Source: Sulfuricurvum sp. (lineage in GTDB: Bacteria; Campylobacterota; Campylobacteria; Campylobacterales; Sulfurimonadaceae). Taken from it: a stretch of 64,000 bases of DNA. The notes under the pieces were generated by a model that had not been told where the DNA came from, ran no database searches, and worked only from the letters and a program-made list of their open reading frames with translations. This document shows positions 7,174-31,289 of this stretch, piece by piece. The position numbers and the translations under genes are program-made. The stretch spans positions 1-64,000 of the forward strand of contig JAUYAU010000015.1 in the NCBI GenBank assembly GCA_030693335.1, written 5' to 3'. How positions within the stretch are numbered: the stretch's first letter is position 1; the number at the start of each line of letters is the position of its first letter.

Positions 7174-7176
7174 ATC

Positions 7177-8408: not shown

Positions 8409-8409
8409 G

Positions 8410-9246
8410 TTACGAAAAAATTTCCTGCAATTTATTAGCATTTTTCATCTCATGGTGCAATGAGGTGTAATCTTCCGCGAGTAATGCCTCTTTCATGGTA
8501 GCAAGTTCACGCTCGAAGAGTTCAATGGCTTCCAAGACATTTAGTCTATTTTGGCGAAAAATGTCTTCCCACATGTAGGGAGAACTTTGTGCCAATCGGC
8601 TCATGGAGCGAAATCCACCTGCGGCAAGGGTAAGAATGTTTTCTTTTTCTTCTTGTGCTAACACGGTATTGGCCAGAGCATACGAGATGACGTGGGGCAT
8701 GTGACTGATAAACGCTGCATGACGGTCATGCTGATCTGCCCCCATCGTGTGAATCTGCATATTAATGGCACGAAAAAGTCTTAATGCTGTATTGCGCTGT
8801 ATCTCGCCGCTGTGTTCTAAATCACACATAACGAGCACTTTATCGGTATAAAGCCCCTCTATAGCAGCATTAGGACCAAATTGCTCTGTTCCCGTCATCG
8901 GATGCGCTGCGACAAAATTTTTGCGAATAGCTTCAGGCACCGCTTTAACAATCACAGCTTTGGTACTGCCCAAATCGATCAGTGTTTTATCACTTTCTGA
9001 TAAATCAACACATTCATGCAAGAGACGTATCACCCCATCAACGGGGACGGCAAAGAAGATAACATCGCAACGTTCTTTGAGGATGTCAAAAGGGACAATC
9101 GCGTGAACAAGACCTCGTTCCAATGCGATTTTTTGATGTTCTAAATTATGGTCACTTCCTACAACGGACGTGACAAATGGGAGCTTTTGGAGAGAGAGGG
9201 CCAAAGAGCCTCCCATCAATCCTAGCCCTACAATTCCTATGTTCAT
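8410..9246 (-). CDS. tyrA: Prephenate dehydrogenase
   Basis: 278 residues with an N-terminal Rossmann fold (GIVGLGLMGGSLA, residues 4-16) and the TyrA motifs DLGSTKA and HPMTGTEQFGPNAA. It converts prephenate to 4-hydroxyphenylpyruvate with NAD(P)+, the committed step to tyrosine. There is no fused chorismate mutase or ACT domain. Start ATG at 9246. It is divergent from bamA; I recall tyrA and bamA homologues being neighbours in Campylobacter too. Confidence 0.92.
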   Translation of the reverse strand: MNIGIVGLGLMGGSLALSLQKLPFVTSVVGSDHNLEHQKIALERGLVHAIVPFDILKERCDVIFFAVPVDGVIRLLHECVDLSESDKTLIDLGSTKAVIVKAVPEAIRKNFVAAHPMTGTEQFGPNAAIEGLYTDKVLVMCDLEHSGEIQRNTALRLFRAINMQIHTMGADQHDRHAAFISHMPHVISYALANTVLAQEEKENILTLAAGGFRSMSRLAQSSPYMWEDIFRQNRLNVLEAIELFERELATMKEALLAEDYTSLHHEMKNANKLQEIFS

Positions 9247-9355
9247 TATGAACCTTTACTTAATAATGCTTTAAAAAGGGTATTTTAGCAGATTTTGGGT
9301 TACATTTACGGTACATTAATTATGACAGTGATAAAATGAGCGCCAATTTAACGCC

Positions 9356-11626: not shown

Positions 11627-11629
11627 ACG

Positions 11630-13093
11630 TTAGTCACGTAATAGAATGGAGAGTTGCGGCGGCAACGGAAGATTTTTAAGCTGCTCACGCACTAAATAAA
11701 GATGTGCTCCCTCTACAATTAGTAATCCATCAGTAAATGAAAGTGTTAACGACTGCTCACTGCTGCGTTGCGCAAGCAATATATGCGAGAGCCAAAGAAT
11801 CGTATAAAGTGCATTGAGTACTTTATTAGATGGCAGAAGAAATCCATAGCTGTTCTTGGGGATCAGATCAGAAGAGGTATGTCCTTTTTTAAACAAGAGC
11901 AAATGGGAAATAAGGGCAATCTGGGTATGAGTTAGCCCATAATCCAGAGCATTGAGCGCTAAGTAGTGGCTGTGCTTTTGATAAGCGTAATACCGTACTC
12001 CCAGTCCGATAGGGAGAAGTTTGGCCGCCATGACGAGCTCGCTACGAGTGGAGACCGGTAGATCCAGATGGACATGCATAAGCGTAAAGAGACGTTTTGC
12101 CAAAGCAGAACATTCAATACCATGGTTGCTATACGTGGCATAGGTATCTAAAAGATATCGCAGTGAAGGGTTGTAGTTCTGAGGAAATTGATCTTTTGCA
12201 TTACGTAATAAATCACTTAGATAAACCCCCTCACGAACCCCCACTCCACTACAAATCAGTTTTTGAACGTTCAAATGATTGGCAATACGCTGTAATATCA
12301 GGGTTCCCGGCTTGATGGTGTCAAAGCGGTCAGGTTTTATATTTAACGACTTGAGTTTTTTTGGTGAAGCTTCCATAATTGCGTTTGCAAATGTTTCAAA
12401 GACTTCTTTGGTGGTTGAGTAGCCATGAAGTTTTTTGAGAGGGTATTCTTCTTTTTTCATCAGCGAACGCGTCAGTGCCCGAAAAGTCCCTCCGACGCCT
12501 ATGAGCATTTGCGTGGATTTAAAAGGAAGCGTATTAAGGGCGTCATCGATGTAACGTACAGCACCCTCTATGTCTCCATGATCCATAAAAAGTTCTTTGA
12601 GCCGTACCGTACCGATGTTGAGAGAAAACATCTTTTCAACTTTACCATTGCTTATTTGCGCAAACTCACTTGAGCCACCGCCAACATCTACGCTTATAGC
12701 ATCCATCGCAGGAAGCAGGTTGGCACATGCCATACCCCCTAGATAGGCTTCTCGCGCACCGTCAATGACTTTGATGCTTAGGGAGTGCTCTTGACGAATA
12801 CGTGCAATAAATTCAGGGGCATTGGGAGCATCACGCAAAGCAGAAGTAGCAACACAAAGAATTTTACGGGCTTTAAAGGATCGGGCAATAAGCAAAAATT
12901 CACCCAAGGCACTAGCAGTACTGTCCATTGCTGATTTTTGCAAGTTCCCACCGTTTGTATAAACGGCTTCTCCTAAACGTACAGAGCTTTTAACTTCATG
13001 AATAATATGAAAAGCAAAACGGCTTGTTTTTTGAACAACCGCCATGCGCATTGAGTTAGACCCAATGTCAATGATGGCGGTGCATTGCGCCAT
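11630..13093 (-). CDS. ppx: Ppx/GppA-family phosphatase
   Basis: 487 residues. The N-terminal ASKHA fold shows the phosphate-1 loop IDIGSNSMRMAVV (9-21), the family motif ATSALRDAPN and phosphate-2 VDVGGGSSEFA. The C-terminal half is a helical HD-like region (about 310-487), as in long GppA/Ppx proteins. It hydrolyses inorganic polyphosphate and/or pppGpp; the two activities cannot be separated by sequence. It follows ferredoxin directly, an arrangement I recall in H. pylori and C. jejuni. A polyphosphate kinase gene lies elsewhere in this window. Confidence 0.9.
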   Translation of the reverse strand: MAQCTAIIDIGSNSMRMAVVQKTSRFAFHIIHEVKSSVRLGEAVYTNGGNLQKSAMDSTASALGEFLLIARSFKARKILCVATSALRDAPNAPEFIARIRQEHSLSIKVIDGAREAYLGGMACANLLPAMDAISVDVGGGSSEFAQISNGKVEKMFSLNIGTVRLKELFMDHGDIEGAVRYIDDALNTLPFKSTQMLIGVGGTFRALTRSLMKKEEYPLKKLHGYSTTKEVFETFANAIMEASPKKLKSLNIKPDRFDTIKPGTLILQRIANHLNVQKLICSGVGVREGVYLSDLLRNAKDQFPQNYNPSLRYLLDTYATYSNHGIECSALAKRLFTLMHVHLDLPVSTRSELVMAAKLLPIGLGVRYYAYQKHSHYLALNALDYGLTHTQIALISHLLLFKKGHTSSDLIPKNSYGFLLPSNKVLNALYTILWLSHILLAQRSSEQSLTLSFTDGLLIVEGAHLYLVREQLKNLPLPPQLSILLRD

Positions 13094-13348
13094 TTATTCT
13101 TCTTCTTCTGTCAGCTGTTTAAACTTATAGAGAAGCTCTTGGGTTGTTTCAACATTTTCTTTGTCAGGGATGATACAATCGACAGGGCAGACAGGAATAC
13201 AGGCTGGTTCATCGTACAGTCCAACACACTCTGTACAACGATCCGGTTCGATAAAATAAATTGGATCACCCTCTTCAATAGCCTCCATTGGGCACTCTTC
13301 GCGGCATGCATCACATGCAATACATTCATCCGTAATGATTAGTGGCAT
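13094..13348 (-). CDS. 2[4Fe-4S] ferredoxin
   Basis: 84 residues with two cluster motifs: CIACDACREECP (about 9-20) and CTECVGLYDEPACIPVCP (about 38-55). The loop inserted in the second motif and the C-terminal acidic helix mark the Alvin/YfhL type of low-potential ferredoxin. In Campylobacterota it is the likely electron carrier for 2-oxoacid oxidoreductases. It ends immediately before the ppx start. Confidence 0.95.
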   Translation of the reverse strand: MPLIITDECIACDACREECPMEAIEEGDPIYFIEPDRCTECVGLYDEPACIPVCPVDCIIPDKENVETTQELLYKFKQLTEEEE

Positions 13349-13414
13349 AGTTAAACCTTGTTTAGTAATATGATAATGGGCGATTTATATCAAAATCTAC
13401 CTTAATGGAAGGTT

Positions 13415-14716
13415 TTATTTGCGCTGTGGTAATAAACAGTAAAGTTTGGCTGGTAAAACAAGTCTTGCAACGGTACCGTCAATCCCATCAATACGGTTTG
13501 TAATACTGATGTCGGCCCCTATGGCCTCAGCAGCACTTTTTGCCAGGAAAAGCCCTAAGCCGACTCCTGACTTGTTTCCTTGACGCTTAAAGGGTGCAAA
13601 GAGATCCATCGCCTCATCAACACCGCAACCCTCGTCAATTACTTCTATAATAATGTCCGTATCACGTAAATAGCTTTGGAAGAGAATGGTCTTGCCGGGA
13701 GGGGTGAATTTCATGGCATTTTGTAAGAAGTTTTGCAGTATCTGATTAAGCAGTGTAACTTGCAAGACAGCAGTGAAATTTTCCGGTTCAAATTTTGTTT
13801 TTAATATTTTCTTTTCACTGTGCGTCAGCAGGGAAAAATCCCCTTCCCATTTTTTGAGAATTTGGATGATATCTGCTTCAACGGGCATTTCAAGTTGTGC
13901 CCCCTCTTGACGGCCAATATTGAGAATGTCGCTTACAATCTTATTCATCTCATCGACGCTTTGATTGGTGATACGAATAGCCTCAATGTACTCTTCGGCA
14001 CTTCTTTTTTTAATCAATGTAACCTGATTCTTGAGTTTGATGACGGCAAGCGGAGTTTTGAGTTCATGCGCCGTACCGATAAAAAGCTCTTTTTGGTACT
14101 TAACAAAATTTTGAATACGTCCCATGAGGCGGTTAATCGTTTCGCCCAGTGGCTCGAATTCATGGGGCAGTTGATCCACTCTGATAGGTCGAAGAAGATG
14201 TTCGTTCATATTGGCAAGTCGTCTCGTCAGTGCACTCACCGGAGCAATAAGCATCTTTGAAAACGCGATGGCATAGAGTATGATAACGATAAATCCAAAG
14301 GCATTGATGATAAAAATTGATTTGAGTATTTTTTGTAAAAGATTCTTAGTCGCTGTAATGTCACGGCTGACTTTTAGATAGGCTGAGTGTTCAAAATCAA
14401 AGGGGTAAATGAGAGTCAAGGTTGTTTCATCGTGATGCGTTGTTTCAATATACTCGATAGAAGCTTCACCTTTTGGCAAGGTGATTAAATCAACGGTTAA
14501 TTCGGATGATGGATCTGATGTTTTTTGCTGAAGCGCTGTGATGGATTTGGAATCGGAAATATTTTGAGCTTTTGTGAGAAGTTCAGCTTGTTTTTCATCG
14601 TAAATGGATTGTTTGATAAAGAGATAAAGAAAAGAGGAAAAAAGAACAACCAGTGCTGCAGAAGCGACAATGAGCTGAACTAAAAAGCGACGTCGTATAC
14701 TTCGTTTAGAAAACAT
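13415..14716 (-). CDS. Sensor histidine kinase paired with the CosR/HsrA-like regulator
   Basis: 433 residues: a membrane segment at about 11-33, a periplasmic sensor region of roughly 100 residues, a second membrane segment (about 135-158), HAMP, then a HisKA domain with AHELKTPLAV (H217). The ATPase has N-box LQNAMKFTPPG, G1 DEGCGVD and G2 GVGLGLFLAKS, so it looks catalytically complete. It starts 18 bases after the stop of the response regulator and is surely cotranscribed with it. I recall no kinase at this point in C. jejuni or H. pylori, where the orthologous regulator is an orphan. The signal is unknown. Confidence 0.9.
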   Translation of the reverse strand: MFSKRSIRRRFLVQLIVASAALVVLFSSFLYLFIKQSIYDEKQAELLTKAQNISDSKSITALQQKTSDPSSELTVDLITLPKGEASIEYIETTHHDETTLTLIYPFDFEHSAYLKVSRDITATKNLLQKILKSIFIINAFGFIVIILYAIAFSKMLIAPVSALTRRLANMNEHLLRPIRVDQLPHEFEPLGETINRLMGRIQNFVKYQKELFIGTAHELKTPLAVIKLKNQVTLIKKRSAEEYIEAIRITNQSVDEMNKIVSDILNIGRQEGAQLEMPVEADIIQILKKWEGDFSLLTHSEKKILKTKFEPENFTAVLQVTLLNQILQNFLQNAMKFTPPGKTILFQSYLRDTDIIIEVIDEGCGVDEAMDLFAPFKRQGNKSGVGLGLFLAKSAAEAIGADISITNRIDGIDGTVARLVLPAKLYCLLPQRK

Positions 14717-19389: not shown

Positions 19390-20520
19390 ATGATGCATCG
19401 TATGATAGATTTTTTGGGGAATAAAAAAACAATCGCAGCTTTTTTTTTGGTGATTGTAATGCTTTTAAGTATTGTTTTTTGGTCTTTAAAGCAAGAAGTG
19501 ACGTCACAGACTCTCGCGAGTTTGAGTGATCAGCTAACCATTTCTTTAAATAATCAATTGCAAGAAGAACGCGAAACAGCATTGCGATATGCATTGATGT
19601 TGTCGCAAAATGGTGCATTGGGCAATGCATTGGAGCAAGAGGATGAAGATAAAGGATTTGACATCCTTTCTGCGGGGATGAAATCGATTAAAATTCATAC
19701 AAATGCGTTAATACGCTCGCAGGTTATTACGTCTGATTATGTTATTTTTGCACGCAGTTGGGATAATTCGTATGCTGGGATGCCGTTGGAATATCACCGT
19801 CCTGATTTACTTTATTTTCAAACGCATAAAAATCCCCGTTCTGCGATCGAAGTAGGGCGTAAGCTGGGAGTTAAAGCGACAGTGCCGATTTATAATGAAA
19901 AAAAGATGCTTGGCTTTGTAGAGGTTCTTTCGTTTTTTGAGCCGACAAAAGAGTATTTTGATCGTTTAGGAATTGATCTGTACATCTTAATGGATAAGCG
20001 ATTTTATGAAATAGCTGTTTTTATGCAGGAAAATCCGATGATTGGCAATAAGTATATTTTAGCAAATTCAAAATATACACGAAATGATATCAAGATGTTA
20101 AACAGCATTGATTACCAAGCGCTAAAAGAGACACATGCATTGATGCATAAAGGAAAATATTTTTTTTACCAGCCGATGAAAAATGGAGAAGGAGAGATTA
20201 TCGGTGCGTTTGTTTTTTCATTAACCCAGAAACAAATTAGCAATTATGCACATTCAGAGCAAGAAGACATCTCTTTTTTGATTCCTTTAAGCCGTGATCA
20301 GCTTTACGATACAATGGCCAAAGAATCATTGGAAAATGCTGTTTTTCAAACGATGCAGGATAAAGAACTGCTTTATATGAAAGACGTTGTGGCTCCTGAA
20401 GACAGAGGATTTTATTTAGAGAAAGCGCGGGAGAGATTAAACGAGTATTCCAAAGAAGAGTTGATCGGTATTATGCTCAATTACAAAGTTTCTAAAAAAG
20501 TAGAAGGAGAAATTCGATGA
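19390..20520 (+). CDS. Membrane-anchored periplasmic sensor protein (Cache-like), no output domain
   Basis: About 376 residues from ATG 19390, which has AAGGG seven bases upstream; a TTG at 19384 is less likely. One N-terminal membrane helix (about 13-32) is followed by a long periplasmic region whose pattern (SWDNSYAGMPLEYHRPDLLY, then GVKATVPIYNEKKMLGFVEVLSFFEP) resembles a double-Cache ligand-binding fold. No second membrane helix, HAMP, kinase or methyl-accepting domain is seen. It overlaps the response regulator by four bases, and the kinase follows, so it probably acts as an accessory input to that kinase. Family assignment is inference. Confidence 0.65.
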   Translation: MMHRMIDFLGNKKTIAAFFLVIVMLLSIVFWSLKQEVTSQTLASLSDQLTISLNNQLQEERETALRYALMLSQNGALGNALEQEDEDKGFDILSAGMKSIKIHTNALIRSQVITSDYVIFARSWDNSYAGMPLEYHRPDLLYFQTHKNPRSAIEVGRKLGVKATVPIYNEKKMLGFVEVLSFFEPTKEYFDRLGIDLYILMDKRFYEIAVFMQENPMIGNKYILANSKYTRNDIKMLNSIDYQALKETHALMHKGKYFFYQPMKNGEGEIIGAFVFSLTQKQISNYAHSEQEDISFLIPLSRDQLYDTMAKESLENAVFQTMQDKELLYMKDVVAPEDRGFYLEKARERLNEYSKEELIGIMLNYKVSKKVEGEIR

Positions 20521-21170
20521 AGGTGTTGCTTTTAGAGGATGAATACATGCTGAGGGTCAGCATTACTGAATTTTTAGAAGATATCGGATTTGAAGTTATG
20601 GGTTTTTCAAATGGCGAGAAAGCATTCGATGCTATTTATGAAACGCAGTTTGATCTTTATTTATTGGATGTCAATGTCCCTGGGATGAACGGCTTTGATT
20701 TGTTACGTACTTTACGAAAAGAGGGAAATAAAGTACCGGCTATTTTCTTAACATCTATGATCAATGTGGATAATTTACAAGAGGGGTATAAGTCGGGATG
20801 CTGTGACTATATTCGCAAGCCTTTTGATCTGACGGAATTACAGATTCGAATTATGCATGCGTTAAAAGATTATTATCATCATGGTGAGAATCTACTTGAT
20901 TTTGGGGAGGGGCTTATCTATGATACTGAAAAATTTGTGCTTAGTTTCAACGGAGAAAGTATAAGCTTGAGCAAAACAGAAAAAGAGATTTTGGACGTAT
21001 TGCTCAAGCATCAAAATCAGATTGTATCGGTCTCGATGTTTCAGGATGAAATTTGGGGCGAATACGTTGACCCTGCCAATATTCGTGTCCAAATCAATAA
21101 TCTTCGTAAAAAGCTTCCGATAGAAATTATTCAAAATCGGCGGGGATTGGGATACATTATTGAACGATAA
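20517..21170 (+). CDS. OmpR-family response regulator upstream of the sox cluster
   Basis: 217 residues: receiver (1-115) with D51 in LYLLDVNVPGMNG, T79/S80 and K101 in YIRKPFD, then a winged-helix domain with LSKTEKEILDVLLKHQNQ and NIRVQINNLRKKLP. It is translationally coupled to the sensor gene before it and overlaps the kinase after it. Its targets are probably genes next to it; the sox promoter is about 1.2 kb downstream and carries 11-bp spaced direct repeats of the type OmpR proteins bind. Confidence 0.92.
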   Translation: MKVLLLEDEYMLRVSITEFLEDIGFEVMGFSNGEKAFDAIYETQFDLYLLDVNVPGMNGFDLLRTLRKEGNKVPAIFLTSMINVDNLQEGYKSGCCDYIRKPFDLTELQIRIMHALKDYYHHGENLLDFGEGLIYDTEKFVLSFNGESISLSKTEKEILDVLLKHQNQIVSVSMFQDEIWGEYVDPANIRVQINNLRKKLPIEIIQNRRGLGYIIER

Positions 21171-22326
21171 CCGCTACGCACTCAAAAACGCTTTTCTTTA
21201 TACGATGCTGGTCGCCATGCTTTTATTGGTGCCGACGTATGTGTATGTTACGTATATGAAGCATGTTAAAGAAATTCAGTATGAATTTACTCTCAAAGGG
21301 CAGTCTCATCTGGTCATTAGAGCGATGGAAGATTTTGATCAAACACAAGAGACGCCGTTTGAATATCCCCGCTTTCAATCGTTTCAGTCAGGATTGTATG
21401 ATGAACATTTTTCTCCTGTTTTTACGTTAATCAAAGAGCCTTTAGCCATACATAAAGTTGGGTACCATATTCAAGACAACTATGCCTATTTGGTTGTTTC
21501 TTTGCCAGAACGACGATATTTTGAGGCTGCCTATCTCATTGTCGGAGGAAACATATCCTATGTGAGTGTTTATCAGGACGTTGTGATTATCTTGCTGGTT
21601 ATTTCGCTTCTGATTTTTATTTTATCGCTCTTTTTTCTGGACCGCTTTGCATTACGCTTTTTGCGAGTAAACCAACGTCTTGATCGGTTTATAAAAGATT
21701 CGATGCATGAGATTAACACACCGCTTTCTATTATCAATGTCAACATTGATCTCTACAATCGAGGTCATTCGACGAATAAATATTTTCAAAGAATCAAAGC
21801 GGCAACCAAAACATTGGCAACCATCTACAATGACATGGACTACCTTATTAAAAATGAACGTATCGCTTTTGACTATGAACTGATTAATCTGAGTCATTAT
21901 TTACGAGAGCGTATTGATTATTTTGAAGAAGTCGCTGCGCTTAGAAACATTACTATTGAGGCAGATATCACAGATGGAATCTTTCTCTTTTTTAACCCTA
22001 CGCAATTACAGCGGATAATTGATAACAATATTTCCAATGCGATTAAATATTCGTATGAAGAAGGGAAGATTGAAATTTCACTGAAAGCAAATAACGATCA
22101 ATGCCTAATGATTTTCAAAGACAACGGTGTCGGGATAAAAGACAGTAAACAAATCTTTGACCGTTATTATCGGGAAAACAAAGAAAAAGGAGGCTTCGGT
22201 ATAGGACTGAATATCGTTAAGTCCATTATTGATCATGCAAATATTGATTTAGAAATTGATTCTAAAGAAGAAAGAGGAAGCACATTCACCTATCGTTTTA
22301 AGCCTCCAATCTATTACAAATCATAA
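21160..22326 (+). CDS. Sensor histidine kinase upstream of the sox cluster
   Basis: 388 residues from a TTG start that overlaps the regulator by 11 bases. Two membrane helices (about 9-30 and 140-162) flank a periplasmic loop of about 110 residues; no HAMP is obvious. The HisKA motif is MHEINTPLSI with H183. The ATPase has NNISNAIKYS (N box), DNGVGI (G1) and GGFGIGLNIVKSI (G2). It completes a sensor/regulator/kinase trio and ends 81 bases before soxX. Confidence 0.9.
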   Translation: MNDNRYALKNAFLYTMLVAMLLLVPTYVYVTYMKHVKEIQYEFTLKGQSHLVIRAMEDFDQTQETPFEYPRFQSFQSGLYDEHFSPVFTLIKEPLAIHKVGYHIQDNYAYLVVSLPERRYFEAAYLIVGGNISYVSVYQDVVIILLVISLLIFILSLFFLDRFALRFLRVNQRLDRFIKDSMHEINTPLSIINVNIDLYNRGHSTNKYFQRIKAATKTLATIYNDMDYLIKNERIAFDYELINLSHYLRERIDYFEEVAALRNITIEADITDGIFLFFNPTQLQRIIDNNISNAIKYSYEEGKIEISLKANNDQCLMIFKDNGVGIKDSKQIFDRYYRENKEKGGFGIGLNIVKSIIDHANIDLEIDSKEERGSTFTYRFKPPIYYKS

Positions 22327-22407: not shown

Positions 22408-22926
22408 ATGCGAAAAATGATAATGCTTGGGATCGCCACCTTTTTAGGTGCAGCCGATCTTTCAACAGCAATTGAAATTCCGGATGCAACGGCAATTCTG
22501 CTAAAAGATGCCCTTCCGGCACCAAAGCTGTACACAATGCCGGCAGGATGTATTGTTGATGATACTGCTGCAATCGCACGCGGGAATTACATTTTCCATA
22601 ACCTGAATGGAAAAGATGCAAAAGAGAATCCTCCTGCGGGTTTAACGCGATTGCTTCCAAATGGAAAAGAGAAGCAAATGGGTAACTGTGTCGCTTGTCA
22701 TCAAATCGAAGGTTCAGTAGGACACGGTAATATTGGACCTGATTTGACAAACTATAAAGCGCTTTATGTGGACAGCGGTGTTAGAACTGGGCAGTTTTTG
22801 TATCAGCAAATCGCTGATCCGCGTTTAGACAATCCAAATACCCATATGACGGTGAATTTGGCAAATGGGCTCTTTTCTGAGCGTGAAGTATGCGATTTGA
22901 TGTCGTATATCGTATCTAAAAAATAA
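22408..22926 (+). CDS. soxX: SoxX cytochrome c
   Basis: 172 residues with an N-terminal signal sequence (about 1-21) and one haem motif, CVACH, at C94, C97 and H98. M147 in NTHMTVN is the likely distal ligand. With SoxA it forms the SoxAX cytochrome, which oxidatively joins thiosulfate to the SoxY cysteine in the periplasm. It has a strong AAGGAGAG ribosome site and heads the soxXYZAB operon. Confidence 0.93.
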   Translation: MRKMIMLGIATFLGAADLSTAIEIPDATAILLKDALPAPKLYTMPAGCIVDDTAAIARGNYIFHNLNGKDAKENPPAGLTRLLPNGKEKQMGNCVACHQIEGSVGHGNIGPDLTNYKALYVDSGVRTGQFLYQQIADPRLDNPNTHMTVNLANGLFSEREVCDLMSYIVSKK

Positions 22927-22949: not shown

Positions 22950-23423
22950 ATGGAACGTAGATCATTTTTAAAAGGATTTGGAGCAGTGAGTGCATGTGTT
23001 GCATTGGTTCCTACTATTGCAAGTGCGGCAGATGATGCTAAAAAAGTTACAGGCCCCAATGAGATGAGCGTTGAATCAGCTTTAGCTGCTATTACAGGCG
23101 GCAAGCCGGTAACACCTTCTTCAAAAGTCTCTCTTTCTGCACCTGAAATTGCAGAAAACGGAGCAGTTGTACCGGTTAAAGTAACCGTGGAAAGCCCAAT
23201 GAGTGCAAATGATTATGTAAAAGCAATCCATGTATTTGGAAGCAAAAATAATAATTCTCGATGCGCCAATGTCTATTTGACACCTGCTAATGGCGAAGCA
23301 TCTTTTGCAACGCGTATCAAGCTGGGAGCTACTCAGGATGTTTTGGCGGTTGTCGAGATGAGTAACGGTACTTTTTTAAGTGCAAAGCAAAATGTAAAAG
23401 TAACCATCGGCGGATGCGGTTGA
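22950..23423 (+). CDS. soxY: SoxY sulfur-carrier protein
   Basis: 157 residues. The N-terminus MERRSFLKGF is a twin-arginine signal, so the protein is exported folded. The chain ends in GGCG with C156, the swinging-arm cysteine to which sulfur intermediates are bound. The family Ig-like core includes VPVKVTVESPMSANDYVKAI. It pairs with SoxZ, which has no signal and is co-exported. Confidence 0.94.
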   Translation: MERRSFLKGFGAVSACVALVPTIASAADDAKKVTGPNEMSVESALAAITGGKPVTPSSKVSLSAPEIAENGAVVPVKVTVESPMSANDYVKAIHVFGSKNNNSRCANVYLTPANGEASFATRIKLGATQDVLAVVEMSNGTFLSAKQNVKVTIGGCG

Positions 23424-23468: not shown

Positions 23469-23795
23469 ATGAAGACACTGGTCAAAATTAAACCAAAAGA
23501 CTACAATATTGGCGATATCGTAAAAATCGATTTCATGGCAATGCATCCGATGGAATCAGGAATGCGTAAGGATAAGGATACAGGAGCAATTGTTCCTGCA
23601 CACTATATTAATGAAGTAAATTTTTTCTTCAACGATAAAATGCTGACTAAAATGGTCACATGGGAATCCCTTTCGGTTAACCCTGTATTATCCATCAGTA
23701 TGAAAGTGTCAGCTGCAGGAACACTAAAGGTCCTTGCAAAAGACAACAAAGGCGAGAGCGTAGAGACAAGCGCAGCCATTACTCCAAAAGGATAA
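23469..23795 (+). CDS. soxZ: SoxZ sulfur-carrier partner
   Basis: 108 residues without a signal peptide, a typical SoxZ Ig-like domain: KPKDYNIGDIVKIDFMAMHPMESGMR, HYINEVNFFFND and LSVNPVLSISMK. It forms the SoxYZ heterodimer that carries the thiosulfate-derived sulfur between Sox enzymes. It would cross the membrane with SoxY through the Tat system. It is three bases from soxA. Confidence 0.95.
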   Translation: MKTLVKIKPKDYNIGDIVKIDFMAMHPMESGMRKDKDTGAIVPAHYINEVNFFFNDKMLTKMVTWESLSVNPVLSISMKVSAAGTLKVLAKDNKGESVETSAAITPKG

Positions 23796-23798
23796 ACA

Positions 23799-24605
23799 AT
23801 GCGTAAACTTTCTATTTGTGCAGCGTTATTCTCGCTTGCTTTATGCGGTGTTTTAAATGCCGAAGAAGCAATGAGTATGAATGCTGCGGATAAAGCAATG
23901 TATGCCGAAATGTTGGAAAACAATCCTGCTGCAATGGACATAGCAGAGGGTGAAGAGCTATTTAACTCTCTAATCGGTCAAGAAGCTTATGCAAAGGTAC
24001 TTGGAGTGAGCGTAAAAGATCTTCCAGAAACGATTGCCGGGTTTCCTCGTATGCTGATGGCCACACCTAAGTATGATTTTACTTTTCCAAAGACGATGCG
24101 TAAAGTTGTGACATTGTCTCAATCCCTGCAAATGGCATTGGCGGATCGTGATAAAAAGGTGCTAAAGCTGGAAAGTAAGGAGATGGTTAAGATGACGGCT
24201 TATGTCAAATCGCTGGCAAATGACCTTAAGACAAACATTGACGTCAAAGCTAACAAGCAAATGGAAGAGATGGTAGTGCTTGGTAAGCACATTTTTGAAG
24301 AACGTCGCGGCGGTCGCGGTCTTTCATGTAACAGCTGTCATAGCGCTGACATCGTCGGAACACGCTTGCGTATGCAGGAACTTCCTGATTTGGGTGCACC
24401 GGCAACAGCCTCTGCATCAACATGGCATGCTTACCGTATGACACAAAGTGCGATGGTCTCATTTGACAAGCGTATGCAGCAATGTATGAAAAATGCGCTT
24501 TTGGCTGAGTTGCCATTGGGTTCCAAAGAGATGGTTGCCCTTGAAGTATACGTTACGAACATGGGAAAAGGCAACACTATCCAGATCCCTGGTCTGAAGC
24601 GTTAA
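23799..24605 (+). CDS. soxA: SoxA cytochrome c, single-haem type
   Basis: 268 residues with a signal peptide (about 1-20, CGVLNA). One haem motif is seen, CNSCH at C177, C180 and H181, followed by the active-site region RMQQC, where C229 is the expected cysteine ligand carrying the persulfide. Some SoxA proteins have a second, N-terminal haem; here that site is absent. With SoxX it starts the Sox cycle. Confidence 0.93.
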   Translation: MRKLSICAALFSLALCGVLNAEEAMSMNAADKAMYAEMLENNPAAMDIAEGEELFNSLIGQEAYAKVLGVSVKDLPETIAGFPRMLMATPKYDFTFPKTMRKVVTLSQSLQMALADRDKKVLKLESKEMVKMTAYVKSLANDLKTNIDVKANKQMEEMVVLGKHIFEERRGGRGLSCNSCHSADIVGTRLRMQELPDLGAPATASASTWHAYRMTQSAMVSFDKRMQQCMKNALLAELPLGSKEMVALEVYVTNMGKGNTIQIPGLKR

Positions 24606-24615
24606 GGAAAAGATA

Positions 24616-26382
24616 ATGGATGTATCACGAAGAGACTTTTTTCACATTGCTGCTGCTTTAGGGATTGGATTACCGACCCTTGGAGCTGCAGCATCAACAC
24701 CTACGCGTCTCGATCAAGTAGGATTAAAAGATATTTACGGCTTTAACGCAAAAGGCAAAGTAACGATTCTGCATATCTGTGATTTGCATGCACATCTTAA
24801 GCCTATGTATTGGCGTGAGCCTTCAACGCTGATTTCGGCTCCAAATCTCACAGGAACTCCAGGGTTTTTGTGCGGTGAGTCGTTTTTGAAGCATTATGGA
24901 ATGAAGGGCAAGACCCTTGATGCCTATTTCGATACGTTTATGAACTTTGAAGCGTTGGCGCAGAAGTTTGGGAAAATGGGGGGGGTTGCTCACATGAAAA
25001 CCCTCATTAACCATATCAAAAATGAGCGCGGTGCGGATAATGTCATGTTGCTGGATTCGGGCGATACATGGCAGGGGACAGGTCTTGCACTCAAAACACA
25101 GGGTGAAGCGATTGTAAAAGCGCAAAACTACTTGGGCGTAGACGTCATGGTCGGTCACTGGGAATTTACTTATGGAAAACAACGGGTAAAAGAACTCATT
25201 GAAATGCTCAAAGGGAAATTTATTTCCCAAAATATCATCGGGGATGATTCCTTTGCCGATGATTACGAAGAATTGATTTTTGAACCGTACACGATCGAAG
25301 AGCGCGGCGGTGCCAAAATCGGTATCATCGGTCAATCGTTTCCGTTTACGTCAACCGCAAATCCAAAAGAGTTTACCCAAGGGTGGAGTTTTGGATTGCG
25401 TCTTGATACGCTTCAAACGTATGTGGATAAATTGCGTAAAGAAGAAAAAGTCGATTGTGTGGTTTTACTGTCACATGATGGGTTTAGTGTTGACCAAGAG
25501 GTCGCGCGTCAGGTCAAGGGGATCGACTTTATCCTCAGCGGCCATACGCATGATCCATCACCGCGTCCTACGGTTGTCAACGGTACGGTTATCATTATCG
25601 CTGGAAGTCACGGTAAATACGTCGGACGTCTGGATATTGATATCCAAAACCATAAAGTTAAAGGGTACGAGTACAAACTCATCCCGATTGCCGCCAATTT
25701 GATTCCTGCTGATCCGGAGGGGGTTGATTTGGTCAATTCTCTCTATGCTCCGCATGAAAAAGAGCTTAGTGAAATACTGGGTGTGACAAAAAACATCTTG
25801 TACAAACGTGACACGTTCCATTCACCGTTTGATGAGTTGATCAATGACTCGATTATGGATGCAATGGATTCGGACATCTCGTTTACACCGGGATACCGTT
25901 GGGGAACTACGGTTCTAGGCGGCGAGCAGATCACGATGGACAATGTCTATGATATGACGGCGATTACGTATCCAAATGTTTATACGTTTGAGATGGGCGG
26001 ATTGCAGATACGAAATGTTCTAGAGGACATCGCGGACAACGTTTTCAATGCAAATCCTCTCTACCAACAAGGCGGCGATATGAGTCGTCTTGGCGGTGTG
26101 ACGTATAACATCAAGATCGGTGCTCCAGCTGGAAAACGGATCACCAATATCATGGTAAAAGGCAAACCTTTGGATGACCGCAAGGTCTACAAAGTGTCAT
26201 CATGGGGCGGAAACCTGCAAAATGCAGGAACCAACTTAAACGATGCCTTGACCCGTCCGGTTTATGATATAACCGCTGGTTATATTAGAAAGCAAAAAAA
26301 GGTTGATATTAGCGGTAACAGCAATGTTAACATTTTAGATTACGATTGTGGTTGCCCTAAAAAAGGCTCTAAAAGCTGCTAA
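24616..26382 (+). CDS. soxB: SoxB thiosulfohydrolase
   Basis: 588 residues. A twin-arginine signal (SRRDFFHIAAALGIG) precedes a calcineurin-like metallophosphoesterase domain with HICDLHAHLKP, DSGDTWQG, GHWEFTYG and LSGHTHDP, which bind two manganese ions. The C-terminal 5'-nucleotidase domain has SWGGNLQNAG. It hydrolyses sulfate from SoxY-bound cysteine S-thiosulfonate. It is last in soxXYZAB. A terminator-like hairpin covers its stop codon. Confidence 0.96.
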   Translation: MDVSRRDFFHIAAALGIGLPTLGAAASTPTRLDQVGLKDIYGFNAKGKVTILHICDLHAHLKPMYWREPSTLISAPNLTGTPGFLCGESFLKHYGMKGKTLDAYFDTFMNFEALAQKFGKMGGVAHMKTLINHIKNERGADNVMLLDSGDTWQGTGLALKTQGEAIVKAQNYLGVDVMVGHWEFTYGKQRVKELIEMLKGKFISQNIIGDDSFADDYEELIFEPYTIEERGGAKIGIIGQSFPFTSTANPKEFTQGWSFGLRLDTLQTYVDKLRKEEKVDCVVLLSHDGFSVDQEVARQVKGIDFILSGHTHDPSPRPTVVNGTVIIIAGSHGKYVGRLDIDIQNHKVKGYEYKLIPIAANLIPADPEGVDLVNSLYAPHEKELSEILGVTKNILYKRDTFHSPFDELINDSIMDAMDSDISFTPGYRWGTTVLGGEQITMDNVYDMTAITYPNVYTFEMGGLQIRNVLEDIADNVFNANPLYQQGGDMSRLGGVTYNIKIGAPAGKRITNIMVKGKPLDDRKVYKVSSWGGNLQNAGTNLNDALTRPVYDITAGYIRKQKKVDISGNSNVNILDYDCGCPKKGSKSC

Positions 26383-26413: not shown

Positions 26414-27913
26414 ATGAAATTAGTAAATTTGAGTATTGCAACGGCTGCTGCGTGTTTGTTGGCAACGTCAGCGCATGCTGCGTTTAAAACCAATGATCGT
26501 GATGTTAAAGGGAGTATGGAAGTTGTATATACTAAAGTACCAGGTGCAGTAAACTCCATCCAAGAGATGTTTACCGAAGGTGAAGTCTATGGACGTGTCC
26601 GTTCAAACAATTTTTGGTGGGATAACGCATATAATACAGAAGCCAGTCGTGATGGTGATATGTACGGTGTGGGCGGAAGTTTAGTATATAAAACAGGCTT
26701 TTATCATGGACTGGGTGCTACGGTAGGTTTTTATGGAGCCTTACCTTTGCATAACGAGAACCGTAGAATTGATGGAAGAAATATAGGTAGATCAGGTAAG
26801 GATACGTATCATACACGTCGTGATGGTAGTGAAGGGTCAATGGGAAATTTTGCGGAAGCCTTCTTGGAATATAAAGCGGGTAAAACGAATGTAAAAGTAG
26901 GTCGTCAGGGTATTGACAGCATTATGCTTTCTACGAATGATACCAAAATGATTCCAAATACATTTGAAGCTGCTATGATCGAGAACAAAGATGTTCCAGA
27001 TACAACTATTCGTGCCGCATATATTGTGAGCCAAAAACTTCGTGATCACCAATCTTTTCACAGTTTGATTGCCAGTGGTCTCACCACAAGTGGAGATCCT
27101 GCTATTAATGATAGAACGGCATTCAATGATGACTCCGGCAGACACAACGGGATAACGGTTGAGACGATCAATGCTAGAGGGAATGGTGACACCGATCCTG
27201 AAATGATTTTTTTTACTGCGACAAACAAATCGATTAAGGGTTTAGTGTTGGATGCGGAGTATGTCGGATTAAAAGGTTTTGTCCAAACCGCGATTGCAGA
27301 AGCAAACTATAAAATCAAACTTAATGATACATGGTCATTGACTCCTGGTGTTCGTTATTTACATCAAATGGATGATGGGGCAGGTTTTATTGGAGGCGCA
27401 GCATTAAGTGGTTCTATTAGAAATGCAGCGGTTGGTACTGCTTCAGGTGGATATAAGGATGCAAGAAATGCGGACAGTAGTATTATCATGGCTCGTTTGG
27501 TTCTTGAAAGTGGACCACTGAAGCTGTTAGCTGGGTATTCAAAAATTGAGGATGCTGCTGATATCATCGCTCCTTGGCGTGGATTCCCTACGGGTGGATA
27601 TACGCGTACGATGGCACAGGTTGATTGGTTGGCTAATACCAAAAACTCATGTTTACGTATTGATTATGATTTTGATAAAGCGGGACTGATTCCAGGCTTT
27701 AAAGCGGCGGCTGCATATGAAGATATTAACCAAGACGAAGGAAAAGGGTTATTCGATCGTACTGTTAAGCAGTTTGACTTTTGGCAAACGTTTAAATCCC
27801 TTCCAAATACAGAGTTTAGATTTCGTGTGGGGATGAATGATGCACATAGACCAGCCACTGGTGATACTGAGTCATACAATGAATACCGTTTCGAAGCTAA
27901 CTACCTATTCTAA
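26414..27913 (+). CDS. Outer-membrane porin, OprD-like
   Basis: 499 residues with a signal peptide (about 1-22, ATSAHA) and then alternating beta strands throughout, ending NEYRFEANYLF with the terminal phenylalanine of outer-membrane barrels. Features such as VKVGRQGIDSIMLSTNDTKMIPNT are typical of the OprD-type porins common in Campylobacterota. Its place right after soxB suggests a role in uptake of sulfur substrates or other anions, but porin specificity cannot be read from sequence. Confidence 0.82.
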   Translation: MKLVNLSIATAAACLLATSAHAAFKTNDRDVKGSMEVVYTKVPGAVNSIQEMFTEGEVYGRVRSNNFWWDNAYNTEASRDGDMYGVGGSLVYKTGFYHGLGATVGFYGALPLHNENRRIDGRNIGRSGKDTYHTRRDGSEGSMGNFAEAFLEYKAGKTNVKVGRQGIDSIMLSTNDTKMIPNTFEAAMIENKDVPDTTIRAAYIVSQKLRDHQSFHSLIASGLTTSGDPAINDRTAFNDDSGRHNGITVETINARGNGDTDPEMIFFTATNKSIKGLVLDAEYVGLKGFVQTAIAEANYKIKLNDTWSLTPGVRYLHQMDDGAGFIGGAALSGSIRNAAVGTASGGYKDARNADSSIIMARLVLESGPLKLLAGYSKIEDAADIIAPWRGFPTGGYTRTMAQVDWLANTKNSCLRIDYDFDKAGLIPGFKAAAAYEDINQDEGKGLFDRTVKQFDFWQTFKSLPNTEFRFRVGMNDAHRPATGDTESYNEYRFEANYLF

Positions 27914-27923
27914 AGGATAAAAC

Positions 27924-28826
27924 ATGCGTTGGATGTTGCCACTATTTATTTCTCTAAGCACGTTGAGCGGGTTTGAGTTTGATCTCAAGCCGCAGCGCAT
28001 CACTCCTGAGGTTACCTGTTTTTTTGGGGAGCCTGAGATGATGAATAAGAGCAATAACGGCAACATGGTCAACACCTGTTATGTCGATACCAAAAAGAGC
28101 TATGTCGTGATCGACAGCGGCTCTTCGTATTTGTATGCCGATGCGGCGTACAAAGCGATGCAAAAAATTAAACCACAACCTGTCGAGTTGGTAATCAATA
28201 CCCATGTTCACGATGATCATTGGTTGGGAAACGGTTATTTTGTTCAAAAGGGAGTTATGGTTTTGGGTTCGGTTGATTTTGTTTATAACTCTATCATTGA
28301 TTCTCCTTCCCGAATCCAAACCCATGTCTCTCCGGAAGCATACGAGTTTACAGTCCCGACACGTCCTACTGAAATTATCAGTGAGGATAAGACGCTTACC
28401 ATTGGTGATCAGATTATTGAACTGCATTTGATGAAGAAAAAAGCACACAGTGACAAAGATTTAGTGGTTTTCATGCCAAAGATCAAAGCCTTGTTTGCTG
28501 GAGATTTAGTTTTCAATGATCGCGTTCTCTCATTGAGAGATGGAGATATCAACGGCTGGATTGAGGCTTTGGAGTATTTGGACCAATTGCAGGCCACAAC
28601 GATAGTAGGGGGGCATGGATTCCGTACGGATAAAGATGCTGCCAAGATGACACAGGACTACCTCATACAGATGCGTACAGAAGTTCGTGAGGCGATTGGA
28701 GAGGGTATCGGTCTTGATGAGACGATTAAAAAGGTGAAAATGCCAACCTATCAATCCCAGAAAATGTACGATACACTGCATCGCGGCAATGTGGATGCTG
28801 CCTACCGTATGTTGGAGTGGGAATGA
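27924..28826 (+). CDS. Exported metallo-beta-lactamase-fold hydrolase (SoxH-like)
   Basis: 300 residues with a signal peptide (about 1-15) and a complete metal site: THVHDDHWLG with H94, H96, D98 and H99, then KKAHSDKDLV, LFAGDLVFND and GGHGFRTD. It resembles SoxH and quinoprotein-relay MBL proteins of sulfur and alcohol oxidation clusters, whose substrates are not settled. Glutathione-related or thiol-ester hydrolysis is possible. It starts 10 bases after the porin and overlaps the next gene by four. Confidence 0.82.
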   Translation: MRWMLPLFISLSTLSGFEFDLKPQRITPEVTCFFGEPEMMNKSNNGNMVNTCYVDTKKSYVVIDSGSSYLYADAAYKAMQKIKPQPVELVINTHVHDDHWLGNGYFVQKGVMVLGSVDFVYNSIIDSPSRIQTHVSPEAYEFTVPTRPTEIISEDKTLTIGDQIIELHLMKKKAHSDKDLVVFMPKIKALFAGDLVFNDRVLSLRDGDINGWIEALEYLDQLQATTIVGGHGFRTDKDAAKMTQDYLIQMRTEVREAIGEGIGLDETIKKVKMPTYQSQKMYDTLHRGNVDAAYRMLEWE

Positions 28827-29257
28827 TCAGATTTTTTTTCCTAATCGTTTTTACATGCTTCACCGCCTATGGTGAGACTAAATTTGCGAAGCCAATCCCC
28901 TCAATTGACAATCCGCGTCAGATTATTTTTTCCATCAGTGCGGGTGATGATGAATCCATAAACCATGTTCTGAGCACTGCCAACAATGTGCTCAAATTTT
29001 ACGGTCCTGAAAATGTTGAAATGGAAATTGTTGCCTATTATCATGGCATAAGAGCGCTTTTAAAAAGTGAAAAAGAGATTTCGGTTCGGGTTAGAGCACT
29101 CATGCAATACGATGTCAAATTTGTGGCATGCGGTAACACGATGGAAACGAAAAAAATACGCCCCGATGAGCTTATCGAGGGAAGTGAGATCGTGACAGCA
29201 GGAATCGTTGAGGTGATCGAACAGATCAGATCCGGCGCCACGTATATCAGACTTTAG
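28823..29257 (+). CDS. Exported DsrE-like protein 1
   Basis: The ATG at 28823 overlaps the upstream stop (ATGA) and has GGAG at 28814-28817. The 144 residues begin with a signal peptide (about 1-17). The remainder has the DsrE/DsrF-like alpha/beta pattern: QIIFSISAGDDESINHVL, VEMEIVAYYHGIRALL, and VKFVACGNTM with a single mature cysteine, C103, where DsrE-type sulfur carriers hold their persulfide. Most family members are cytoplasmic; this one is exported, which fits a periplasmic sulfur carrier role next to Sox. That role is inference. Confidence 0.75.
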   Translation: MIRFFFLIVFTCFTAYGETKFAKPIPSIDNPRQIIFSISAGDDESINHVLSTANNVLKFYGPENVEMEIVAYYHGIRALLKSEKEISVRVRALMQYDVKFVACGNTMETKKIRPDELIEGSEIVTAGIVEVIEQIRSGATYIRL

Positions 29258-29266
29258 GAGAATAGT

Positions 29267-29728
29267 ATGAAAAAATGGTTATTGCTTTTGAGTTTATCGA
29301 TGTTGTTGAATGCACAAGAGGGATTGAAGAAAGTTGTTTTTGATTTGACACTGGGAGATCAAAAAGCATTTGAACGAAAAGTTCTTAGCGGAATTGTCAA
29401 AAACAAAGATTATTATGAAGGAACTATGCAAGAATTGGATGTTGCCGTAGTGATACATGGCAATGCGTATAAGTTTTTTGTCAAAAACCTCTCAACGACA
29501 CCGTATAAAAAAGAGCGTGAGTTAATTTCTGCACAGGAATCATTTGAAAAAAGACTCAGAAGCTTAGCGGCTCACTACAACGTCAAATTTTATATCTGTC
29601 AAGCAGGACTCAACGAGCTCAAAATACCAAAGGAAAATATTTATGATTTTGTCACGCCCGTAGCAACTTCAACAATCGGACTCATTGACAGACAAAGCGA
29701 AGGTTATGTGTATATCCCTACACGCTAA
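29267..29728 (+). CDS. Exported DsrE-like protein 2
   Basis: 153 residues, signal peptide about 1-16, then the same fold pattern as the preceding protein: KKVVFDLTLGDQKAFERK, LDVAVVIHGNAYKFFVK and VKFYICQAGLNEL, with the single cysteine C111 at the matching place. It is a divergent tandem relative of the preceding gene, nine bases downstream. Two proteins of this type side by side suggest a heteromer, as in DsrE/DsrF, but located in the periplasm. Confidence 0.75.
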   Translation: MKKWLLLLSLSMLLNAQEGLKKVVFDLTLGDQKAFERKVLSGIVKNKDYYEGTMQELDVAVVIHGNAYKFFVKNLSTTPYKKERELISAQESFEKRLRSLAAHYNVKFYICQAGLNELKIPKENIYDFVTPVATSTIGLIDRQSEGYVYIPTR

Positions 29729-29763
29729 CCCTACAAACACAATTTAAAAAAACAGGAGTTGAA

Positions 29764-30681
29764 ATGAAAAAAATATTACTATTAGCATGGCTGATTTTAG
29801 GAATGGTCTCATTGTATGGGGCAGGTGATTTACGTATTTTCAGTGTCCAAAATGCAGATGGAAAGATGAATGCAACAGTAGTTGAAAAAGCACTCGAAGC
29901 CAATGGCTTTGTGATTTCGTCAAACACGGAAATGAATGGTCCGTTTGTAAAACAGTTTGGTAAAAGTGATTTTACCCAATTTAATTTATTGACGGCTTTT
30001 CATAAAGTACTGTCGGATTCATTGGTGCGCTCTCATCCGGATGCAGGTATCTTTCTCCCGATGGGTTTTGGTATTTACCAACGTAACGGCGATAAAAACT
30101 TTTACGTATCTGTATTGACGGCAGAAGCAATGAAAAAAATTGCCGGATTCGATGCACCTGAATTTGCGCTGATTGAAAAAGAAGTTCTCGCAACAATTAA
30201 AAAAGCGCTTCCAGGTGCAAAAATGGTGATGAGTGAGCCTGCTTTACCTGCCCAAGGGCCTTTGCTAACCCGTTATGTCAAACCTACGGATGCAGCAAGT
30301 TGGGCAGCTGATAAAGACAGCACGGAAATGATGATCGAAGAGGGATTAAAACCTGCAGGTTTTGTACTTTCAAACTTCACCGATTATAATTTTGTTCTCA
30401 ATGAGGGTACAGTACCAAGCCCATTTGATTTTTACGATACCTATTCCATTTGTAAACTGAAAGTCATTAATACAGTGGCAAATACACGTCCGGAAGCGGG
30501 AACATTTGCCCCATGTTCATTGATGGTGTATAAGGTAAAAGGTTCCAACGAAATCGTTATGGGCTTCCCTAGTGTGTATAATTGGATCAGCAGTGCACAC
30601 ATCACAGATCCCGATGGAAAAGCGGCGTTGTTAACAGCACAAAAAGATTTTGAAGAAGTTTTAAAATCTGCTACGGAGTAA
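29764..30681 (+). CDS. Exported protein with two DUF302-like domains
   Basis: 305 residues with a signal peptide (about 1-20). Two similar halves follow, about 35-155 and 175-300. Each has a helix beginning VVEKALEANGFV or MIEEGLKPAGFV, a strand/helix around the middle, and a pattern like HPDAGIFLPMGFGIYQ or RPEAGTFAPCSLMVYK. This is the DUF302 fold, often seen in sulfur and stress loci; its biochemical role is unknown. The duplication inside one chain is uncommon. It ends the run of sox-associated genes that share the strand. Confidence 0.72.
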   Translation: MKKILLLAWLILGMVSLYGAGDLRIFSVQNADGKMNATVVEKALEANGFVISSNTEMNGPFVKQFGKSDFTQFNLLTAFHKVLSDSLVRSHPDAGIFLPMGFGIYQRNGDKNFYVSVLTAEAMKKIAGFDAPEFALIEKEVLATIKKALPGAKMVMSEPALPAQGPLLTRYVKPTDAASWAADKDSTEMMIEEGLKPAGFVLSNFTDYNFVLNEGTVPSPFDFYDTYSICKLKVINTVANTRPEAGTFAPCSLMVYKVKGSNEIVMGFPSVYNWISSAHITDPDGKAALLTAQKDFEEVLKSATE

Positions 30682-30779
30682 ATCTCCGCAGCTCTTCTTA
30701 ACCCCTACAATACTGTATTTTTGATTGTATTTGATAGTATATTATTAGTAAAATTTATTTGCGACATGAAAGGGCACTT

Positions 30780-31289
30780 ATGCTTTCACGTTTTATCCTA
30801 TTTTCTACAGCTTTAATTTTCTCAACTGCTCTTATTTCTGCGTCGCTTCCTGACATCAAAATGGCGGATAACGGGTTGTCTTTTCGTGAGATAGAAGGGT
30901 ATCAGGATTATAAGATCGTTGCTACGCATTATCGTACGGATAAAAAGGAACTACGCTATATTCTGGCAAATCCAATCGCACTAAAAGCACTTATGGCAAA
31001 AAAACAGCCGCTTCCAGAGGGGAGCAAGATCGTTAAGGTTGCTTGGAGTATTAAACCGATGGCAACATTTCCTGATGCACTGGAAGCAGATCAGATTCAA
31101 CGGATCGAATATATGGTAAAAGACTCAAAACGCTATAACCAAAACGGCGATCATTGGGGATATGCCCGATACGTTAAAAAAGGGGATAATTATGTACCGT
31201 ATGCAAAAGGTTCGGCAGAGTGTATTGCCTGTCATGCATCGGTTTCTTCAGATGATTATCTCTTTACGAGTTTTCAAAAGACCTATTAA
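30780..31289 (+). CDS. Exported cytochrome P460-like haem protein
   Basis: The ATG at 30780 has AAAGGG six bases upstream; an upstream in-frame TTG is rejected because it would extend the signal peptide. The 169 residues start with a signal peptide (about 1-22). The C-terminal CIACH (C148, C151, H152) and the preceding GDHWGYARYVKKG segment match the cytochrome P460 family. Some members oxidise hydroxylamine or detoxify NO, others are plain cytochromes. About 100 bases separate it from the DUF302 gene, so it may have its own promoter. Confidence 0.75.
   Translation: MLSRFILFSTALIFSTALISASLPDIKMADNGLSFREIEGYQDYKIVATHYRTDKKELRYILANPIALKALMAKKQPLPEGSKIVKVAWSIKPMATFPDALEADQIQRIEYMVKDSKRYNQNGDHWGYARYVKKGDNYVPYAKGSAECIACHASVSSDDYLFTSFQKTY

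Follow-up and report, generated by a model that had tools for sequence, protein, structure and literature searches.

The window, i.e., the whole stretch of 64,000 nucleotides of Sulfuricurvum DNA analysed here, contains soxX, soxY, soxZ, soxA and soxB in one cluster (Table 1). All five score above the NCBIfam equivalog cut-offs, and together they constitute a Sox thiosulfate system. They are followed by a porin gene and then by four genes encoding a metallo-beta-lactamase (MBL)-fold protein, two DsrE-family proteins (DsrE1 and DsrE2) and a protein with two DUF302 domains, whose Pfam matches all exceed the gathering scores. The first-pass annotation had called these four genes after soxXYZAB and the porin, and its gene calls and coordinates are correct. 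The short or overlapping junctions that it described are borne out as well: all genes are on one strand (+), with gaps of 31 bp between soxB and the porin gene, 10 bp between the porin and MBL genes, 9 bp between dsrE1 and dsrE2, and 35 bp between dsrE2 and the DUF302 gene, and the MBL stop overlaps the dsrE1 start in ATGA (-4 bp). The four genes probably form the distal part of a co-transcribed thiosulfate-oxidation operon. The cluster is not a chance arrangement, since dozens of genomes share this neighbourhood.

The host genome is 2.17 Mb in size, and its closest named relatives are Sulfuricurvum MAGs. A second cluster in this genome (L090) comprises soxC (G000:C1, 564.7 bits, above the cut-off), a SoxD-like cytochrome, soxY2 and soxZ2, together with a thioredoxin, a MOSC protein and three double-DUF302 proteins.

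Table 1. Genes and conserved cysteine codons of the sox cluster and its distal part in the window.
Feature	Positions	Strand	Evidence
soxX, c-type cytochrome	22408..22926	+	TIGR04485 81 bits, above cut-off
soxY, sulfur carrier, C-terminal GGCG	22950..23423	+	TIGR04488 163.5 bits, above cut-off
soxZ	23469..23795	+	TIGR04490 103.8 bits, above cut-off
soxA	23799..24605	+	TIGR04484 183 bits, above cut-off
soxB, thiosulfohydrolase	24616..26382	+	TIGR04486 811 bits, above cut-off
OprD-like outer-membrane porin	26414..27913	+	PF03573 4.6e-15
MBL-fold protein, SoxH-related, predicted exported	27924..28826	+	PF00753 1.8e-19; TIGR04559 2.3e-56, below its cut-off
DsrE1, DsrE family, predicted exported	28823..29257	+	PF02635 4.4e-8; AlphaFold2 pLDDT 92.9; MTH1491 Z 20.6
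DsrE1 Cys103 codon	29129..29131	+	sequence; Cys invariant 81/81
DsrE2, second DsrE-family protein, predicted exported	29267..29728	+	PF02635 1.5e-11
DsrE2 Cys111 codon	29597..29599	+	sequence; Cys invariant 24/24
Two-DUF302-domain protein, predicted exported	29764..30681	+	PF03625 4.9e-8; AlphaFold2 pLDDT 91.1; best PDB 1q9u
DUF302-protein Cys230 codon	30451..30453	+	sequence; invariant
DUF302-protein Cys251 codon	30514..30516	+	sequence; invariant

The four predicted exported proteins

Signal peptides had been proposed for all four proteins, and we do find signal-peptide-like N-termini that recur in relatives. In a simple hydrophobicity test, a heuristic rather than SignalP, the four show h10 values of 1.9–2.9 preceded by K/R, the weakest signal being that of the MBL protein. 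Two cytoplasmic DsrE controls fail the test (h10 0.4–0.5), and the relatives pass it in 63/63 cases for DsrE1, 23/23 for DsrE2, 67/68 for the DUF302 protein and 33/35 for SoxH. The four proteins should thus be exported, as far as this heuristic can tell.

Both DsrE proteins match PF02635 above its gathering score of 22.7 bits (33.8 bits for DsrE1 and 44.9 bits for DsrE2). The AlphaFold2 model of DsrE1 takes the DsrE fold, and it superposes on MTH1491 (1l1s) at 0.9 Å over 111 residues, with ST0148, YchN, TusD and DsrE as the next matches. A fold other than DsrE, named in the first-pass annotation as a possible refutation, has thus not turned up. DsrE2 is predicted to share the fold, an assignment made from the Pfam match and the hhalign alignment to DsrE1. 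The annotation had also noted one cysteine in each protein at matching positions. In agreement with this, hhalign aligns C103 of DsrE1 with C111 of DsrE2 (99.5% probability), both are invariant in the aligned relatives, and mature DsrE1 would hold a single cysteine, as its second one, C12, is non-conserved and lies inside the signal peptide. By hhalign, C103 does pair with the active Cys78 of TusD, though not at a significant level (E 0.67). The solved relatives MTH1491 and ST0148 have the same cysteine in the same motif. The cysteine therefore predates the association with Sox and, since neither of these two proteins has a known function, the cysteine alone is no proof of sulfur transfer.

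A recent duplication of dsrE1 was considered as the source of dsrE2 and rejected: the two are only 21% identical in the profile alignment, and DsrE2 belongs to a separate family flanked by different genes. In sister species, its relatives are found away from sox, in loci that follow a divergent regulator of the ArsR type and encode an N-terminally extended rhodanese, a cytoplasmic DsrE, DsbD and thioredoxin. The backbone of the DsrE2 tree does not separate an origin of the window copy in such a rhodanese locus from one in a Sulfurimonas-like sox cluster.

The MBL protein appears from its sequence to be a relative of SoxH, a known sox gene product for which a role as a substitute for SoxB in freeing sulfate from SoxY has been put forward (PMC9122950, PMC11237559). 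It has the PF00753 match, the dinuclear-site ligands and the position adjoining soxB, and its export is judged by the heuristic. The HxHxDH motif and the other metal ligands are intact (H94, H96, D98, H99, H175, D194 and H231), and they are conserved in 22–23 of 23 aligned proteins.

The double-DUF302 protein scores 33.2 bits against PF03625 (gathering score 23), and its AlphaFold2 model consists of two DUF302-like halves, with 1q9u as the best PDB match (TM 0.82 by target). TCTP matches in PDB sequences (E 0.04) were discounted as chance beside 1q9u. C230 and C251, both in the second DUF302 domain, are invariant in all 74 aligned proteins, and the first domain is without both cysteines. Paralogs in the same genome still keep the pair at 19–28% identity.

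Recurrence beside soxB

Scanning genomes with a profile of dsrE1 gave 197 relatives, and the best 80 were read. Among these best 80 of 197, 55 loci have at least 5.5 kb of upstream sequence, and in all 55 soxB and soxY lie upstream of dsrE1 on the same strand. An OprD-like porin gene stands between soxB and the module in 46/55, soxH is present in 41 and missing in 14, and a thioredoxin-like gene is located just 5' of dsrE1 in 35/55. A double-DUF302 gene follows dsrE1 in 70 of 75 loci, again among the best 80 of 197 (66 counted by script and four by hand, i.e., L093, L094, L095 and L097, where it lies behind dsrE2), and in 12 loci of this set dsrE2 is found behind the DUF302 gene. The loci come from Sulfuricurvum, Sulfurimonas, Hydrogenimonas, Nitratiruptor and Arcobacter, and also from Sulfurovum and Sulfurospirillum. 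Among 60 relatives, the order and strand of soxB, porin, soxH, dsrE1 and DUF302 are kept in the soxB-carrying genomes of the genus that were read, with soxH missing in G028, and are kept in two other families as well. The set is likewise present on an annotated plasmid of Sulfurovum mangrovi (NZ_CP087125), as soxXYZA, an MBL protein, a DUF255 thioredoxin, DsrE, DUF302 and DsrE.

The usual order in the phylum is soxXYZAB-porin-soxH-thioredoxin-dsrE1-DUF302(-dsrE2). Compared with it, the window lacks the thioredoxin gene and has dsrE2 between dsrE1 and DUF302, as in close relatives. The placement of dsrE2 varies: many clusters lack it, in Sulfurimonas and Sulfurovum it comes after DUF302, and it can also occupy a separate locus with a rhodanese. 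The co-occurrence beside soxB that the first-pass annotation had suggested looking for is therefore found, with dsrE1 downstream of soxB and in the same orientation in every one of the 55 loci, and the scattering without sox that would have counted against it did not occur for the core genes. As to the proposed four-gene set, dsrE1 and DUF302 are constant, mostly together with soxH, but the second DsrE is not a fixed member. Since SoxH is missing in 14/55 loci and dsrE2 in most, neither SoxH nor DsrE2 should be essential to the module. All seven genus genomes bearing the dsrE2 insertion have SoxC (7/7). We do not claim a tie between the two, because these genomes look closely related and may represent one event.

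Among 47 good-quality genomes, dsrE1 and soxB are both present in 28, soxB alone in one and dsrE1 alone in none, with 18 remaining (P ~4e-12, which overstates the independent evidence, as 27 of the 47 genomes belong to one genus). The direction is the same in other families. For soxC no association is observed: 8 genomes have both genes, 20 only dsrE1, 5 only soxC, and 14 remain. Thus 20 of the 28 dsrE1 genomes have soxB and no true SoxC. We did not find dsrE1 in the SoxC-positive, soxB-negative genomes G005 and G018 of the genus, nor in G042 and G047. Overall, the core of the module is locked to soxB and independent of soxC. Since most carriers have SoxB without true SoxC, the sulfane sulfur on SoxY must be cleared in some other way.

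Similar kinds of proteins are also found beyond the phylum. The alphaproteobacterium Indioceanicola profundi has two tandem DsrE proteins with signal-like N-termini encoded close to CcdA, thioredoxin and soxD, C, B, Z, Y and A, and a Paracoccus sox cluster holds DUF302, thioredoxins, CcdA and two MBL proteins together. The same protein kinds have thus met beside sox more than once.

Possible roles of the module

We propose that the module assists the thiosulfate branch as an accessory and that the cysteines of periplasmic DsrE proteins would take sulfane sulfur off SoxY, and we give this reading, whose chemistry is inferred, roughly an even chance (about 0.5). It draws on the linkage to soxB rather than soxC, on the invariance of the cysteines and on the DsrE fold, and further on the rhodanese beside DsrE2 relatives, the tandem DsrE pair of Indioceanicola, and the induction on thiosulfate in Sulfurovum indicum, where dsrE, soxW and soxH1 adjoin soxABXYZ and rise 2.17–3.83 fold (PMC10045233). 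The periplasmic handling of sulfane sulfur or polysulfide that the first-pass annotation had suggested for the two DsrE proteins is likewise an inference. In the Sox cycle, SoxXA couples thiosulfate to the SoxY cysteine and SoxB cuts off sulfate, leaving the sulfane sulfur on SoxY. Cys103 of DsrE1 would then accept this sulfur as a cysteine persulfide and free SoxY, assisted in the lineage of the window by Cys111 of DsrE2. The double-DUF302 protein, in which one cysteine pair survives, may be a partner in transfer or release, a role often shared by the thioredoxin in other genera, and the SoxH-like hydrolase may be an optional helper. In members without SoxCD the sulfur might exit as polysulfide or S0, and in the genome of the window it could pass to a second carrier, SoxY2Z2, and SoxCD. 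More broadly, and only tentatively, Sox systems that are split or lack SoxCD might have their missing carriers of sulfane sulfur in the periplasm in exported DsrE proteins, through which the sulfur left by SoxB would pass from SoxY to SoxY2Z2-SoxCD or out as polysulfide, with DUF302 as the dedicated partner. If true, a fold familiar from sulfur transfer in the cytoplasm would be running a sulfur relay outside it.

The module might instead maintain thiols, keeping the SoxY cysteine (as well as heme and disulfide sites) reduced and reactivating blocked SoxY like SoxV/SoxW/SoxS of Paracoccus, with DsrE and DUF302 as thiol reductants or adaptors outside the main sulfur flux. The thioredoxin-like genes within the module (35/55 of the loci counted above) are consistent with this, as are the CcdA and thioredoxins beside the paired DsrE genes of Indioceanicola and beside DUF302 and the two MBL proteins of Paracoccus, and the DsbD accompanying DsrE2 relatives. 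However, each DsrE protein has one cysteine and no CxxC, which rules out the cycling of an ordinary dithiol reductant, and the cluster in the window keeps DsrE and DUF302 though it has no thioredoxin. We regard this account as rather unlikely.

Uptake is less probable still. Here the porin, the DsrE pair and DUF302 would import polysulfide or S0 and load SoxY, i.e., they would serve as an entry route rather than an exit of the thiosulfate cycle. The OprD-like porin is present in 46/55 of the clusters above, and porins of this type have been proposed for S0 uptake in Campylobacterota (PMC10045233). Yet the same source gives higher levels of dsrE-soxW-soxH1 on thiosulfate than on S0, and the module is absent from G005 and G018, where S0 oxidation by SoxYZ2-SoxCD would be expected. 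Finally, periplasmic hydrolysis of tri- or tetrathionate by SoxH and DUF302, with DsrE catching the freed sulfane sulfur, is very improbable in spite of the intact SoxH metal site and the soxA-DUF302-soxB order for which a role in trithionate oxidation was proposed in Acidithiobacillia (PMC5037610), as the latter idea comes from a correlation across a small number of genomes, 14/55 module loci have no SoxH, and growth data for these organisms on polythionate were not found in the open-access literature.

The sulfane-sulfur reading matters because Campylobacterota are major sulfur oxidisers of vents, sediments and aquifers. Most Sulfuricurvum genomes examined have soxXYZAB and no true SoxC, which raises the question of how sulfane sulfur is removed from SoxY, and the soxB-locked, soxC-independent cysteine proteins, predicted to be exported, are a concrete candidate for it.

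Relation to known systems

The first-pass annotation knew of no described pathway with this gene set. This is too strong, as parts of it have been described already, namely dsrE-soxW-soxH1 beside sox and DUF302 in other sox clusters (PMC10045233, PMC5037610 and PMC11034169). A functional test of any of the four proteins was not found in the open-access literature. The Sulfurovum indicum locus resembles the window in that genes for DsrE and SoxH adjoin its soxB cluster. In the available part of the paper, which terms DsrE and SoxW thioredoxins, it differs by soxW and one DsrE, with DUF302 not named, whereas the cluster in the window encodes two DsrE proteins and lacks a thioredoxin.

With the SoxH/quinoprotein relay zinc metallohydrolases (TIGR04558, TIGR04559), the MBL protein shares a full-length match (E 1e-52 to 1e-56), a predicted exported MBL fold and complete metal ligands. 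However, it falls below both curated cut-offs (176.4 bits against 300 and 191.3 bits against 280, respectively), and no PQQ dehydrogenase is nearby. It is ~29% identical to an MBL protein of a Paracoccus sox cluster. DsrE1 resembles the DsrE/TusD carriers and the MTH1491-type branch of PF02635 in its modelled fold and in the single invariant cysteine after the central strand, but it is predicted to be exported, and MTH1491 (Z 20.6) and ST0148 are closest to it, with TusD and DsrE further away (Z 14).

DUF302 genes also occur in the sox clusters of Acidithiobacillia (between soxA and soxB, PMC5037610), of Sulfitobacter, where DsrE and DUF302 are given as unknown genes (PMC11034169), and of Paracoccus. 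They share the conserved cysteine pair, located here in the second domain. In contrast to them, the protein in the window has two fused domains, the first without the cysteines, and its putative partner is an exported DsrE. Lastly, the locus agrees with the split Sox system of Campylobacterota, in which soxXYZAB and soxCDYZ form separate clusters, in that soxXYZAB lies directly upstream and soxCDYZ elsewhere in the genome, while the distal soxH-dsrE1-dsrE2-DUF302 part falls outside the defined Sox cycle.

Genes flanking the operon

The two-component pair that precedes the operon in the window is a possible regulator of sox. A response regulator and a sensor histidine kinase likewise lie upstream of soxX on the Sulfurovum mangrovi plasmid NZ_CP087125, and a histidine kinase gene is found there in the S. 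kujiense-like locus L059. For the small exported protein behind the module, we observed 88% identity in genome G020, and going by gene labels it was not seen in most relatives.

Coordinates of the features discussed (window positions unless a genome, locus or record is named)
Feature	Location	Strand	Content or position
Response regulator and sensor histidine kinase	20517-22326		immediately upstream of soxX
Small exported protein, CIACH haem-like motif	30759-31289		downstream of module
Second sox cluster, window's genome	L090 (G000:C1:84000-100000), 4686-13640	-	soxC, SoxD-like cytochrome, soxY2, soxZ2, thioredoxin, MOSC protein
Split soxB, S. mangrovi	L171 (NZ_CP087125), 3800-5574		several open frames
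DUF302-like fragment	G014:C11:24837-24965		60-residue open frame

Loss and possible decay of sox and module genes

In two loci (L071 of genome G028, and L093), soxH is absent between the porin and dsrE1 while the other module genes are intact, so soxH can be lost separately. The soxB of the S. mangrovi plasmid is broken in the record, which reflects either a sequencing error or a decayed gene. Genome G014 is without soxB, and its short frame, matching residues 263–305 of the DUF302 protein at 60%, is apparently a leftover of a lost module.

Additional sox and DsrE loci

Two genomes hold an additional small sox cluster (L069, G031:C5; L074, G022:C63). Besides soxY, soxZ, soxB and dsrE1, it encodes a protein resembling SoxB (28%) and carries a distant dsrE2, whereas soxX and soxA are absent from it. 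Since its match scores are identical in both assemblies, this compact cluster is perhaps mobile or a shared contamination.

Three more double-DUF302 proteins flank the soxC-soxY2-soxZ2 cluster of the window's own genome, and similar paralogs are retained near soxC in two genomes of the genus, G005 and G018, which have SoxC and are without soxB.

Outside sox, loci of sister species (L080-L086) combine an exported DsrE2 relative, a rhodanese with an N-terminal extension and a cytoplasmic DsrE with a divergent ArsR-type regulator, DsbD, thioredoxin and a porin; L086 also holds a single-domain DUF302 protein. This gene set is a putative sulfane-sulfur locus of its own.
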